Assembly (NCBI GenBank): GCA_004211975.1
Contig: RXIK01000134.1
Location: 1-32,997, forward strand
Direction of reading: 5' to 3'
Source of the DNA: Methanosarcinales archaeon
GTDB lineage: Archaea > Halobacteriota > Methanosarcinia > Methanosarcinales > Methanogasteraceae
DNA length: 32,997 nucleotides
The translations under genes were made by a program, and so were the position numbers. Under the pieces are notes generated by a model that was given only the letters and a program-made list of their open reading frames with translations, was not told where the DNA came from and did no database searches. Shown here piece by piece: positions 15,228-20,601 of this stretch (position 1 is its first letter; every line of letters starts with the position of its first letter).

Positions 15228-15375
15228 ACTGCACCCACACCCACCAACAGGATCAATTCCCACCAAACAACCCCATTTCTACGAGGACCTAAGGCGTCAT
15301 TATCGAGATGGCGCCACATTCTTCTTTGCTTGCCGGACACAGATTCCCGGGAAAACATGCAAACGATTCTACAGT

Positions 15376-15383
15376 AAATATAA
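15376..15383 (+). promoter_or_regulatory. TATA-like box of the restriction-modification gene
   Basis: AAATATAA lies 26-33 bases before the ATG at 15409. This fits a leaderless transcript and argues against the track's start at 15121. Confidence 0.45.
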
Positions 15384-15408
15384 TGAAGCACGGAGCACCA
15401 TTCATGAT

Positions 15409-18405
15409 ATGATGCCGAAAAACGAAACGAAAGACGAGGCAAAACAGAAGATCGGGGAACTTGTCGAGCGGTTCAGATATAATCTTAACGTCTACAAAAA
15501 ATCGGCATACAATGAAACACAGGTGAGGCGAGAGTTTATTGACCCGTTCTTTGAAGCTCTGGGCTGGGATGTTAGCAATAAGCAGGGTCATGCAGAACAG
15601 TACAAGGATGTTGTTCACGAGGACGCAATAAAAGTGGGGCGTTCGACCAGAGCGCCAGATTACAGTTTCAGAATCGGAGGTCTGCGGAAGTTCTTTGTCG
15701 AAGCGAAGAAGCCCGCAGTAAACATAAAAGATGACGTTGCCCCATCATACCAACTGCGGCGATACGCATGGAGCGCAAAACTGCCATTATCCATCGTGAC
15801 CGATTTTGAGGAAATATCAGTCTACGACTGCCGGATCAAACCAGGGCAGAAAGACAAAGCCAGCGTGGGACGGATCGGATACTACACGTTTGAAGAATAT
15901 CCCGATAAGCTTGATGAGATATACGATGTCTTTTCCAAGGACGCAGTTCTCAAAGGAAGCTTCGACCAGTACGCACAGTCAACAAAAGGCAAAAGAGGCA
16001 CTGCAGAAGTTGATAACGAATTCTTAAAAGAGATTGAGAGCTGGCGTGAAATACTGGCTAAAAACATCGCTCTCAGGAACCCCGAGGTGTCAATCCACGA
16101 GTTAAACTATGCGGTGCAGAAAATAATAGACCGGGTCATCTTCCTCAGGATCTGCGAAGACCGGGGAATCGAGCCCTACGGGCAGCTGCACCCAACAGCC
16201 AACTCCACCAACATCTACACACACCTGCTGAACCACTTCAAACTCGCAGAACTAAAATACAACAGCGGCATATTTAACTTTGGGGCAGACGCGGTAACGC
16301 CACAATTGGAGATTGACGACAAGGTCTTGAAAACAATTATCCAGAGTCTGTACTATCCGAAATCGCCGTACGAATTCTCGGTTCTCGGCGTCGAGATCCT
16401 GGGAAACGTGTACGAACAGTTCCTGGGCAAGGTCATCAGGCTGACCGCGGGACACCAGGCAAAAGTGGAGACAAAGCCAGAGGTCAAAAAGGCAGGCGGA
16501 GTGTACTACACACCCCAATACATCGTTGATTACATTGTGGGAAACACGGTTGGTAAACTGGTTGCGGGAAAAACGCCAGAAGAGATTGCGGAAATCAAGA
16601 TACCCGACCCTGCATGTGGTTCAGGAAGTTTTCTTATCGGTGCGTACACGCATCTCCTGAGGTATCATCTGGACTGGTACGTGGAAAACAAGCCGAAGAA
16701 GCACAAAAAGGCGGTTTTTCAGGTCAAAGAGAACGAATGGTACCTGACAACAGATGAGAAGAAGAGGATTCTTTTAAACAACATCTACGGCGTTGATATC
16801 GACTCGCAGGCAGTCGAGGTTACAAAACTGAGTTTGCAATTGAAAGTGCTTGAGAACGAAAGCAGGGAGAGCGTAGACCAGCAGGTGAAACTGGGGACGG
16901 AGGGCATACTTCCGAACCTCGGGGGCAATATCAAATGCGGAAACTCACTCATCGGACCGGATTTTTACGATGCAGGGCAGACAACTCTTTTCGATGAGGA
17001 TGAAATGCGGCGAGTCAATGTGTTCGATTGGGATGATGCAGGACGGGGGTTTGGGGAGATTATGGGCAGGGGTGGGTTTGATTGCGTGATCGGGAATCCA
17101 CCATATGTACGGCAGGAACTGCTGAAAGAACAGAAAGGATATTTTAAAGATCATTATCAGGTGTATCAGGGAACTGCTGACCTGTGCGCCTACTTTATTG
17201 AGAAAGGGGTCTCGCTGCTCCAGTCTGGCGGATATTTCTCGTATATTGTTGCGAACAAGTGGATGCGTGCGAATTATGGCAAACCGCTCCGGCAGTGGCT
17301 AAAGACAAAGCGAATCGAGGAGATCGTTGATTTTGGCGATCTCCAGGTGTTCCAGAATGCTACAACTTACCCCTGTATTATGCGGATTTCCAACGGGAAA
17401 CCCAGTTCGACATTTGGAGTGACGCAGGTCGAAACGCTGGAGTTCTCAGACCTCGGGACTTATGTGGAAAAGCATCAGTATACGGTGAATCAAGATGGAC
17501 TGGATGATGGTGGGTGGGCGCTCGTCGATAAAGAGACCCGGGCATTACTGGATAAACTACGTAAAACAGGCGTCCCGTTGGGTGAATATGTCGATGGAAA
17601 AATATACTATGGCATTAAAACAGGTCTGAATGAGGCTTTTGTCATCGATTCCTCAACTCGTGATAAGCTGATCACGGAAGACCCCAAAAATGCAGAACTG
17701 ATCAAGCCATTTCTTGCCGGTAAGGACATCAAACGATATCAGCCACCGTGCAGCAAACGGTACTTGATACTGATACCAAAAGGCTGGACAAACCAAAAAT
17801 CAGGAGGGGTGAAAGATGCCTGGAACTGGCTGCAAAATAACTATCCCGGAGTGGCTTCTCATCTGAAACCCTTCTCTGAAAAAGCTCAGAAACGCTATGA
17901 CAAAGGTGAATATTGGTGGGAACTGCGTGCTTGTGATTATTACATTGAATTTGAAAAGCCTAAGATTGCATATCTAATATTTCAAGTAAAGCCCACATTT
18001 ACCTTTGATGATGGGGGTAATTATTGCAATAATGCAACTTATATAATTCCAAATAAAGATTTGCTATTGTTGGGAATACTTAACTCGAAGCTTGGTTGGT
18101 TCTTAATTTCTAGCTATTGTACTCAAATACAGAATGGTTATCAACTCATCTTCAAATATTTTGGGAAAATCCCCATATGCACGATAGACTCCTACAATCC
18201 TGCTGAAAAAGCCCAGCACGATAAACTTGTTTCCTTGGTAGATAACATGCTCGATCTGCAAAAGAAATACGATAAGACGAGAATGGAGCGAGATAAAGAA
18301 CTTTATGAACGGCAGATAAAGATTGTTGATGCACAGATTGACCGGCTGGTTTACGATTTGTATGGGCTGACAAAGGGGGAGATTGGAATTGTGGAAGAAG
18401 AGTGA
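15409..18405 (+). CDS. Type IIG-like restriction endonuclease-methyltransferase
   Basis: 998 aa from MMPKNETKDE, containing a whole restriction-modification system in one chain. Residues ~30-110 hold a PD-(D/E)xK nuclease (RREFIDPFFEALGWD, PDYSF...VEAKKP). A helical linker follows, then an N6-adenine methyltransferase with GGVYYTPQYIVDYIV, motif I DPACGSGSFLIGAY (~400) and motif IV GNPPY (~563). The C-terminal third is a TaqI/Eco57I-like target-recognition region (IYYGIKTGLNEAF, LIKPFLAGKDIKRY, IAYLIFQ) ending in a coiled-coil-like helix. It should cut and methylate one strand-specific site, recognition unknown. The track's first 96 residues are rejected: they lie in decayed DNA, show no homology-like features, and a TATA box sits at 15376. 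The 3' end overlaps the next gene. Confidence 0.92.
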   Translation: MMPKNETKDEAKQKIGELVERFRYNLNVYKKSAYNETQVRREFIDPFFEALGWDVSNKQGHAEQYKDVVHEDAIKVGRSTRAPDYSFRIGGLRKFFVEAKKPAVNIKDDVAPSYQLRRYAWSAKLPLSIVTDFEEISVYDCRIKPGQKDKASVGRIGYYTFEEYPDKLDEIYDVFSKDAVLKGSFDQYAQSTKGKRGTAEVDNEFLKEIESWREILAKNIALRNPEVSIHELNYAVQKIIDRVIFLRICEDRGIEPYGQLHPTANSTNIYTHLLNHFKLAELKYNSGIFNFGADAVTPQLEIDDKVLKTIIQSLYYPKSPYEFSVLGVEILGNVYEQFLGKVIRLTAGHQAKVETKPEVKKAGGVYYTPQYIVDYIVGNTVGKLVAGKTPEEIAEIKIPDPACGSGSFLIGAYTHLLRYHLDWYVENKPKKHKKAVFQVKENEWYLTTDEKKRILLNNIYGVDIDSQAVEVTKLSLQLKVLENESRESVDQQVKLGTEGILPNLGGNIKCGNSLIGPDFYDAGQTTLFDEDEMRRVNVFDWDDAGRGFGEIMGRGGFDCVIGNPPYVRQELLKEQKGYFKDHYQVYQGTADLCAYFIEKGVSLLQSGGYFSYIVANKWMRANYGKPLRQWLKTKRIEEIVDFGDLQVFQNATTYPCIMRISNGKPSSTFGVTQVETLEFSDLGTYVEKHQYTVNQDGLDDGGWALVDKETRALLDKLRKTGVPLGEYVDGKIYYGIKTGLNEAFVIDSSTRDKLITEDPKNAELIKPFLAGKDIKRYQPPCSKRYLILIPKGWTNQKSGGVKDAWNWLQNNYPGVASHLKPFSEKAQKRYDKGEYWWELRACDYYIEFEKPKIAYLIFQVKPTFTFDDGGNYCNNATYIIPNKDLLLLGILNSKLGWFLISSYCTQIQNGYQLIFKYFGKIPICTIDSYNPAEKAQHDKLVSLVDNMLDLQKKYDKTRMERDKELYERQIKIVDAQIDRLVYDLYGLTKGEIGIVEEE

Positions 18406-19831
18406 AATAAAATATAAATGGATATACTATAAATACTGGATTTATTACCTAATTCCAACATTGGTAGTCGTTTCAATTCTATACTGCATCCATCCGAACG
18501 AATGTCCAGATAATGCAAGGTACATATTAAGCGCAATCTCTCAAGGCTTGGCTGCTATACTTGCGTTGGTGTTTACGATTACATTAGTAGTAGCACAGAT
18601 GACGAGAAGATACACGGCGATGGATAAGATTATATTTAGATCTGAAACCAAGTTTTTAATGATTCTCTTTGGAATTGGCATTATTGCACCGCTTTTAGTT
18701 CTTGAATTTGGGTTTTGGAAATGGGGTGTACCTTTGTCGATTGTTACTGCGAGTTTTTGTGTCTTTTCATTGCTTCCGTTTTTGATAGGTGTTAACAGCG
18801 TGTTGAAATATGACATTGCGGTAGAAATTTTAGACGAAGAGACCATGGAAGCAATTGAGTTGGGATACGAACCAAGGGCTATAAACAAAATCAGGGAGTT
18901 GAATGAGATTGGTGAAAGTGCAGTTAGAGAATTTCGTGAGGATGATGTAATGGAAATAGTAGGTCGGTTATCAATAATTGGTGAAGAATCGGCCAAAAAA
19001 AGGTTTAAACACGCAACACTTCTTGTTGCAGATGGGATTATAGGTATGGGAATTGGAAGTATCGAAAATGAACTTGATGATATTAGGATAGTTAAGAATG
19101 CAGTTATCGGATTGAAAAATATTGGAGTTGAGGCTGCCAAAAATAGATTAGAGGGTTTGTCAGAGGTGGTTCCAAAAGCTATCAATGGGCTAACAAAGGT
19201 TGGAACCAAAGCCGCCGAGAAAAAATTGGTAGGCACAACAATTAGTGCCGTAAGCGGACTAAAAGATATCATTGTAGAGTATAGGTATCTGTTTAGTTGG
19301 GACAATATCCCTGGGACGGATAACGAGAGATTCTTAAAGTGCCTCATAACTTATCACGATATAAACTGGGCGAAAAGCGCAAAAATCCGCAAATCCGATG
19401 ACGACAAAACCATATACCTTTTTACTGATGAAAATTCAGCTGAAATAACGATCGATGAGACGGGGGAAACGGCGATCTTAAAAATTAACGATGGTAGGAT
19501 CCACGATATAGAAGTTAAAAAGGAAAACCACAAGCTAAACCTACGTAACGGTGGCACTGAATTAAAGGGTGAAAGAGATAAATATATTGAGGTGTTAAAA
19601 GATACAAAGAATATACTCACTGCGGTAAAAGGGGTGTGGTGTTTGGGTGCATTTGTGACGAAATATATGCCTAAACAGGCAGACACTGTAATCCAAAGTC
19701 TAAAAGAAATAGAGAAAGAGATCGGAAAGGATTCGTTAATGAAATGGGAATGGGAGAAAAATTGTACAAACAAGCACCCTCACCTAAAATCCTCTTTTGA
19801 AAAGTTTAAAAGGAGATATGATGGGAGATGA
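18383..19831 (+). CDS. Membrane protein with four TM segments and repeated helical domain, coupled to the restriction gene
   Basis: Unrecognised, up to 482 aa. Four TM segments lie at about 18-36, 48-72, 90-110 and 115-138; the second (AISQGLAAILALVFTITLVVAQM) resembles the DUF2254 membrane region. Residues ~160-300 contain four related units: EIGESAVREF, IIGEESAKKRF, NIGVEAAKNRLEGL and KVGTKAAEKKLVG, each followed by a helix ending in V..AI.GL-like residues, so a HEAT-like solenoid is likely. The last ~180 residues are charged, mixed alpha/beta. It starts with TTG at 18383 or 18389, the latter 8 bases after GGGGGAG, overlapping the restriction gene by 17-23 bases, so the two are translationally coupled. 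It is more AT-rich than its partner. A defence role is inferred from the coupling only. Confidence 0.72.
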   Translation: MELWKKSEIKYKWIYYKYWIYYLIPTLVVVSILYCIHPNECPDNARYILSAISQGLAAILALVFTITLVVAQMTRRYTAMDKIIFRSETKFLMILFGIGIIAPLLVLEFGFWKWGVPLSIVTASFCVFSLLPFLIGVNSVLKYDIAVEILDEETMEAIELGYEPRAINKIRELNEIGESAVREFREDDVMEIVGRLSIIGEESAKKRFKHATLLVADGIIGMGIGSIENELDDIRIVKNAVIGLKNIGVEAAKNRLEGLSEVVPKAINGLTKVGTKAAEKKLVGTTISAVSGLKDIIVEYRYLFSWDNIPGTDNERFLKCLITYHDINWAKSAKIRKSDDDKTIYLFTDENSAEITIDETGETAILKINDGRIHDIEVKKENHKLNLRNGGTELKGERDKYIEVLKDTKNILTAVKGVWCLGAFVTKYMPKQADTVIQSLKEIEKEIGKDSLMKWEWEKNCTNKHPHLKSSFEKFKRRYDGR

Positions 19832-20015: not shown

Positions 20016-20270
20016 ATGCAAGCCGCAACACAAGCCATTGAAACGATAGGAACGATCGACGCCCAGCATCATCTCGTTCTGGACGAAACGCTGCCCATCA
20101 CCGGACCGACTCGTGTCCGCGTAATTATCCTGCTGCCCGAAGAATCAGAGATAGACGAGACTGAATGGCTACAGGCAGCAGCAGCCAACCCAGCCTTCGA
20201 TTTCCTGAAAGATCCTGAAGAGGATATTTACACGCTTTCTGATGGGAGACCGTTCTATGATGATGGGTAA
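20016..20270 (+). CDS. Antitoxin-like small protein paired with PemK/MazF toxin
   Basis: 84 aa, preceded by a good Shine-Dalgarno (AAGGAGAA, 7 bases from the ATG). The first half (ETIGTIDAQHHLVLDETLPITGPTRVRVIILLPE) resembles the beta-rich N-terminal domain of small DUF104/AbrB-like antitoxins. The second half is acidic (PAFDFLKDPEEDIYTLSDGRPF), like the disordered tails that wrap toxins, and PEEDIYT..DG is commonly seen in such partners. It overlaps the MazF-like toxin by 14 bases. Role: bind and neutralise the toxin and probably repress the shared promoter; the latter is family knowledge, no operator was identified here. Confidence 0.78.
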   Translation: MQAATQAIETIGTIDAQHHLVLDETLPITGPTRVRVIILLPEESEIDETEWLQAAAANPAFDFLKDPEEDIYTLSDGRPFYDDG

Positions 20271-20601
20271 AGTCGTTCTGGTACCTTTTCCGTTCGATGA
20301 TCTTTCTACTACCAAGGTACGACCTGCAGTCTGCCTGACAGATCCCATTGGCACGCATCGCCACGTTATCATGGCTTTTGTCAGCAGCCGAACACCAGCC
20401 GACCTACTGGAAACCGACCTGATACTGAATTCGGGGCAGGCAGACTTTACCATGACGGGGTTACGAGTGACCTCCACGCTCCGGCTGCACCGTCTGATGA
20501 CGGTCACGACTGCGTTGGTTCGGCGGGAATTGGGCGAATTATCGCCCCGAATGCAGGATGAAGTGGTGAACCGGCTGCGGGGACTGTTTGGTCTGGCATA
20601 A
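20257..20601 (+). CDS. PemK/MazF-type toxin (endoribonuclease)
   Basis: 114 aa from MMMGKVVLVPFPFDDL. The start KVVLVPFPFDD..T.KVRPAVCL is the hallmark of the MazF/PemK SH3-like fold, with the conserved arginine of the RPA motif. VIMAFVSSR and LRLHRLMTV correspond to the later strands with the catalytic Ser/Thr region. These toxins cleave mRNA at short sites. The start overlaps the antitoxin end (three consecutive ATGs, GGGAG 8 bases upstream of the first), so translation is coupled. The track's earlier start at 20242 lacks this spacing. The pair appears intact and potentially functional. Confidence 0.85.
   Translation: MMMGKVVLVPFPFDDLSTTKVRPAVCLTDPIGTHRHVIMAFVSSRTPADLLETDLILNSGQADFTMTGLRVTSTLRLHRLMTVTTALVRRELGELSPRMQDEVVNRLRGLFGLA

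Follow-up and report, generated by a model that had tools for sequence, protein, structure and literature searches.

The restriction gene and its overlapping membrane partner

The locus studied here raises the question of why the gene for a one-chain restriction enzyme runs into the gene for a membrane protein, and of what that membrane protein consists. In the window, the whole stretch of 32,997 nucleotides that we analysed from a Methanosarcinales archaeon, an open reading frame that starts at GTG 15121 or ATG 15409 and ends at 18405 lies among archaeal genes (methanogenesis marker 8, mevalonate kinase and archaeal DnaG). The PADLOC model REase_MTase_IIG (PDLC03604) matches residues 10-992 of the 998-aa product read from 15409 (E 1e-218), and the single chain carries HSDR_N, Eco57I methylase and TaqI_C domains in the architecture of Type IIG enzymes, so that the original prediction of a Type IIG-like gene is borne out by a near full-length match and by the three expected domains. 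What distinguishes this gene from other Type IIG enzymes, with which it shares the one-chain nuclease, methylase and specificity domain, is an apparently swappable, overlapping 3' gene that is often effector-like. The features of the locus are collected in Table 1.

Table 1. Features of the Type IIG locus, in window coordinates
Feature	Position	Strand	Basis or detail
Restriction gene leader and first codons; in G006 directly joined to the membrane protein	15367..15482	+	blastn 71.6% to G006, next aligned base is window 18413
Type IIG restriction-modification enzyme	15409..18405	+	998 aa; HSDR_N nuclease, Eco57I-type N6 methylase, TaqI_C specificity domain
Probable ribosome-binding site GGGGGAG (AGGGGGAG region), within the restriction gene	18374..18381	+	sequence; junction kept in L300-L302
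4-TM DUF2254-like membrane protein	18383..19831	+	482 aa from TTG 18383, 480 aa from TTG 18389
In-frame coding mobile element, 262 bp	19285..19546	+	HMM match E 1e-40; encodes residues about 300-387 (YLFSWDNIPG...KLNLR); absent from G006 homologue
5' terminal inverted repeat, GTATCTGTTTAGTT (consensus GTATTTGTTTAGCT)	19285..19298	+	
3' terminal inverted repeat, AGCTAAACCTACGT (consensus AGCTAAACATATAC), partly decayed	19533..19546	+	

The two genes overlap by 23 nt if translation of the membrane protein starts at TTG 18383 and by 17 nt if it starts at TTG 18389; the overlap and the probable Shine-Dalgarno sequence inside the restriction gene, both proposed originally, can be read directly from the sequence. 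A check on conservation of the overlap found the same junction at four loci, distributed over three genomes (the window, two loci in G370, and G268 with a truncated form), so that it is not a product of chance. Hydropathy agrees with the four TM helices that had been described, and inspection by eye places the 'IG..A.+' helical repeats at about residues 165-297. What had been taken for a long cytosolic tail is not native throughout: a mobile element has been inserted at residues about 300-387, and the 395-aa homologue in G006 lacks it. After the membrane gene, at 20016-20601, the window holds an 84-aa open reading frame and a PemK/MazF toxin, and in G036 (L250) an 84-aa frame of the same type stands after a remnant of the restriction gene.

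Above cut-off, the membrane protein matches none of the families in Pfam, NCBIfam and PADLOC, and no PADLOC model of PycTM or another known membrane defence effector matches it. Its likeness to DUF2254 is a short stretch near the second TM segment that scores 15.1 bits, below the Pfam cut-off of 28.8. With the whole protein as query, a first scan of the contigs gave no match; a search among relatives found a match to either the close-homologue part or the insert part of the query in 97 of 150 genomes, residues about 7-297 matching a handful of close homologues and residues about 297-390 matching more than 100 unrelated open frames. The more distant homologues stand mostly in housekeeping neighbourhoods (SecY operon, PEP synthase, IF2/NDK). 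The protein is not a novel kind of partner tied to restriction, as had been supposed, but a DUF2254-like 4-TM protein; tight coupling to this particular Type IIG subfamily recurs, whereas the wider family is mostly found away from restriction genes, which is the outcome named originally as refuting the idea. In G001 one homologue (L035:4807-6585) immediately precedes a restriction gene of the GmrSD/SspE type (DUF262-like).

A variable position 3' of the restriction gene

Relatives of the restriction gene are 60-86% identical to it, and many fall in one family (f10), which is probably ANME-1, the lineage name being inferred. Among these close relatives the gene that directly follows the restriction stop varies and is often effector-like. 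The same 4-TM protein occupies the position in the window and at two loci in G370, with the truncated form in G268; elsewhere we find PycTM-like 2-TM proteins at +1 or -3 (the PycTM model of PADLOC matches the G024 gene), a Dsr2/ThsA-like SIR2 protein at -25 (a 25-nt overlap), a TIR protein at +64, a HEPN protein at +49, a DUF2254 protein at +7 (in G375 the protein at this position, of 601 aa, passes DUF2254 with 37.5 bits), a TM protein in G006 and G410, and DUF6414 and AlbA proteins in other relatives. The slot is frequent and not universal, as several relatives lack a tight partner or have at this place a gene that is unrelated or on the opposite strand.

Truncated copies of the last 30-110 codons of the restriction gene precede several later genes, and in four cases it is the PycTM-like gene that lies at +1 or -3 of such a truncated end. 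The pattern suggests that cassettes are exchanged at the 3' end of the restriction gene. In polymorphic toxin loci, orphan effector modules are found as downstream cassettes that start with truncated copies of the 3' end of the main gene. The truncated 3' copies would be similar in kind here and could likewise permit swapping by recombination, but the main gene of this locus encodes a restriction enzyme, and its payload comes as a gene of its own instead of a C-terminal domain. Eight loci (L298, L303, L306, L307, L308, L310, L250 and L277) have the look of arrays of cassettes, with truncated Type IIG 3' ends before the downstream genes.

In G006 the homologue of the membrane protein (67% identical, adjoining the same mevalonate kinase gene) serves as an empty site for the inserted segment. 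The first restriction codons of G006 continue directly into the membrane protein, and most likely, therefore, the restriction body was deleted there and the membrane partner retained. The omega of this protein against the one in the window is 0.43. The fused frame (L034, G006:C64, 5502-6689) joins the first 24 restriction-enzyme residues to the membrane protein, apparently by natural deletion, and its junction has ATATAA in common with the window.

A coding mobile element inside the membrane gene

The segment that sets the window protein apart from its G006 homologue belongs to a family whose ends are 14-bp terminal inverted repeats (GTATWTGTTTAGCT), with the consensus GTATTTGTTTAGCT / AGCTAAACATATAC derived from 131 copies. 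Copies in non-homologous genes are 80-96% identical in DNA, with the identity ending at the boundaries of a unit of about 262 bp, and two such copies in what is apparently one genome are 95.8% identical. In 73 non-redundant hosts, the 8-bp flanks are alike at 0.599 against 0.329 expected, a value reached by none of 5000 permutations, and flank lengths of 6, 7, 9 and 10 gave no comparable signal in the same hosts. At least six of the eight flanking positions are equal in 31 of the 73 hosts, with exact duplications in seven. The element in the window has the modal length of the family, and 262 bp together with the 8-bp duplication make 270 bp, or 90 codons. In the window copy the flanking 8-mers (GAGTATAG/AACGGTGG) agree at 3 of 8 positions and the 3' end carries several changes; because the duplication has decayed and this end has changed, the mobility of this copy is judged from its relatives. 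Terminal inverted repeats, target duplications of fixed length, no transposase of its own and ends common to autonomous insertion sequences place the family among MITEs, or non-autonomous elements.

Two further sequences resemble parts of the element. The downstream protein of L274 contains TYIIRKEDGTLNIYEG, which resembles a decayed mobile-element end, and L154 (G013:C103, about 76404-76503) holds a short repeat, about 100 bp long, whose ends (GTATGTGTTTAGCT) are related to those of the element and which is apparently a non-coding relative.

Hosts, reading frame and fold

Nearly all sampled copies lie in frame within genes. At least 25 open codons upstream and at least 10 downstream flank 117 of the 129 full copies (medians 194 and 190), and within the element no other plus-strand frame is open in any of 123 copies, one reverse frame being open in 39. 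The hosts, identified with Pfam and by alignment to PDB structures, include CDC48, LonB (two copies), ATP-dependent DNA ligase (five copies), PRPP synthetase, RadC, a K+ channel, a patatin and an XPD/DinG-type helicase; within the genome of the window itself the segment also occurs in a multihaem cytochrome and a FecCD permease. Alignments to solved structures of PRPP synthetase and a VCP-like ATPase show an insert-sized gap in an otherwise continuous host sequence.

The peptide is under selection, with an omega of 0.12-0.60 on the insert in orthologous hosts, usually looser than on the host. The terminal codons are fixed in comparison with the interior of the element (Ser AGC 87% against 25%, Ile ATA 91% against 31%, Leu TTG 66% against 6%), and since they are fixed against the interior preference, the DNA of the ends is kept as well as the peptide. 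Pattern scans were made on alignment A2, as alignment A1 was too variable for them. An AlphaFold2 model of 92 residues built from 34 sequences has a pLDDT of 91.3, a pTM of 0.80 and a strand at either end. In the PDB, no structure matched this fold at an E-value of 0.001 or lower, and the insert has no match in Pfam; hits to DUF4340 and Laminin_G were rejected as spurious, being weak, below cut-off and not common to the members.

A candidate mobiliser of the IS66 family

A scan for the end sequence led to a 1464-bp unit in G056 that is bounded by the inverted end pair, contains an IS66-family transposase gene, agrees with the element at 13 of 14 end positions and has an exact 8-bp duplication, GCCTTATT. 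Searching with the G056 transposase, we found in G044 a 1615-bp IS66-family insertion sequence with the duplication AAAAAAAC, whose ends are identical to those of the element at 14 of 14 positions; the ends are all that the two have in common. Because of this identity, an IS66-family insertion sequence is the likely mobiliser. The same search gave no IS66 match in the copy-rich genomes G091, G041 and G059, so the assignment is drawn across genomes, and in these three the mobilising sequence could be absent, unassembled or different. The IS66 elements of Methanosarcina have other ends (GTAACTATTCAGCC). Repeats in G013 that start with GTATGTGTTTAGCT were considered as mobiliser and rejected, since they look like another, non-coding repeat family. 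The element itself is not an IS66-family insertion sequence, as it encodes a peptide of about 90 aa only and no DDE_Tnp_IS66 transposase.

Competing explanations

We give a probability of roughly 0.85 to the joint reading in which the 3' end of the Type IIG gene would be a slot for translationally coupled accessory genes, occupied here by a probable membrane-acting effector, and the membrane gene would in turn contain a 262-bp MITE-type element. That the partner is instead a housekeeping DUF2254-like protein that merely lies 3' of the restriction gene, coupled to it without any meaning for defence, is a doubtful but serious alternative: the distant homologues in housekeeping contexts and the retention of the protein in G006 after loss of the restriction body agree with it, and the recurrence of the overlap at four loci and the recognised defence effectors at the same position in relatives argue against it. 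We consider it improbable that the partner regulates the enzyme or anchors it to the membrane: the strict overlap would favour a fixed stoichiometry, yet close relatives replace the partner with unrelated SIR2, TIR, HEPN and PycTM-like families, so that no fixed partnership is needed. The second-layer effector proposed originally would gain indirect support from the abortive-infection-type effectors found in the slot of relatives, and the distant membrane homologues, which are not beside restriction genes, speak against it; the guard that senses DNA damage, proposed with it, appears to fit the contents of the slot less well.

For the inserted segment, the purifying selection (an omega below 1 is also what a functional domain would show), the confident compact fold and the repeated use of the same CDC48 loop in several genomes would suit an ordinary mobile domain with a binding, regulatory or similar host function that spreads by recombination and not by transposition. 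We regard this as very unlikely, in view of inverted-repeat ends conserved in DNA against codon preference, 8-bp target duplications, hosts without a common function or compartment, and an insertion sequence with the same ends. Removal of the insert as an intein or intron, which would leave the host proteins unaffected and explain the tolerance in essential proteins, has hardly any claim on belief. To our knowledge, about 90 aa is below the size of known mini-inteins; in alignments A1/A3 neither an initial Cys/Ser nor a terminal Asn is conserved; the insert is under coding-type selection and has no Pfam match, to a Hint domain or otherwise; with the splice residues absent, we reject both. Under the transposition reading, an IS66-family transposase that recognises GTATWTGTTTAGCT would cut and paste, or copy, the element; an insertion of 262 + 8 = 270 bp would preserve the reading frame; the peptide, as a compact domain with a strand at both ends, would be placed in a surface loop and leave the host protein working; and copies that break the frame or are wrongly oriented would be purged.

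Taken further, these observations lead to a wider reading to which we lean slightly: that self-folding, in-frame coding archaeal transposons mobilised by IS66 act as a domain-insertion engine, with up to 29 copies per genome, essential proteins included, and have crossed archaeal phyla, and that Type IIG 3' ends are recombination sites at which abortive-infection effectors are exchanged. The restriction-effector slot would tie Type IIG systems to abortive infection.

Relation to known elements

Rickettsia palindromic elements (RPEs; Ogata et al. 2000) are small in-frame translated repeats in unrelated genes, with inverted-repeat ends (PMC10969869, PMC2229807); they are bacterial, about 105-150 bp long, and their target duplication is listed as unknown in a review table (PMC2229807). 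The archaeal element works like RPEs in its in-frame insertion, predicted translation and inverted ends, a likeness of description and not of family membership, and it differs from them in its 262 bp, clear 8-bp duplications, predicted stable fold and an IS66-family insertion sequence with the same ends. With MITEs mobilised by insertion sequences it shares the short non-autonomous form, the inverted repeats and duplications, and ends common to a full-length insertion sequence, but its copies are nearly all in frame inside genes and its peptide is under selection; archaeal MITEs are not described as coding in a review (PMC10969869). The 8-bp duplication and the GTA-starting ends are as in the IS66 family, the 14-bp repeat being identical to that of the G044 insertion sequence, whereas the element lacks a transposase and has the ends alone in common with that family. 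In the openly accessible literature we found RPEs and coding MITEs in bacteria and no archaeal counterpart; most subscription papers lay outside this search, and absence from it is not proof.

For 25 years, coding repeats that insert in frame have been a curiosity known from Rickettsia and Wolbachia, with no known mobiliser in the reviews consulted, and the element adds a second case, independent of the first, in the archaea that dominate methane oxidation. Its clean ends, duplication length, candidate transposase and folded payload make the mechanism directly testable. For annotators, unexplained insertions of about 90 aa in proteins of ANME, Methanoperedens and Altiarchaeota may be this element.

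Distribution of the element

A genome scan finds the element in ANME-1, ANME-2, Methanoperedens, Methanosarcina, Methanothrix and Altiarchaeota, and also in single Omnitrophota and Bacillota MAGs, where binning errors could account for it. Of the 394 genomes in the phylum sample, 49 carry it. Copy numbers reach 29 (G091) and are 17-25 in four Altiarchaeota genomes, and searches of viral contigs, plasmids and phages detected no copies. A copy from Altiarchaeales and one from ANME-1 share 82.7% DNA identity, which suggests that the element has been transferred between phyla.

In one Altiarchaeales genome (G513; L319, L320) the element lies in frame in a gene that is present in six identical copies and that we called transposase-like by eye, Pfam giving no match. 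Genes that by eye resemble those of contractile tails or baseplates are unusually rich in the element (L160 and L161 in G041, L159 in G091, and L053, L117 and L110), with up to seven copies in one Bacillota gene.
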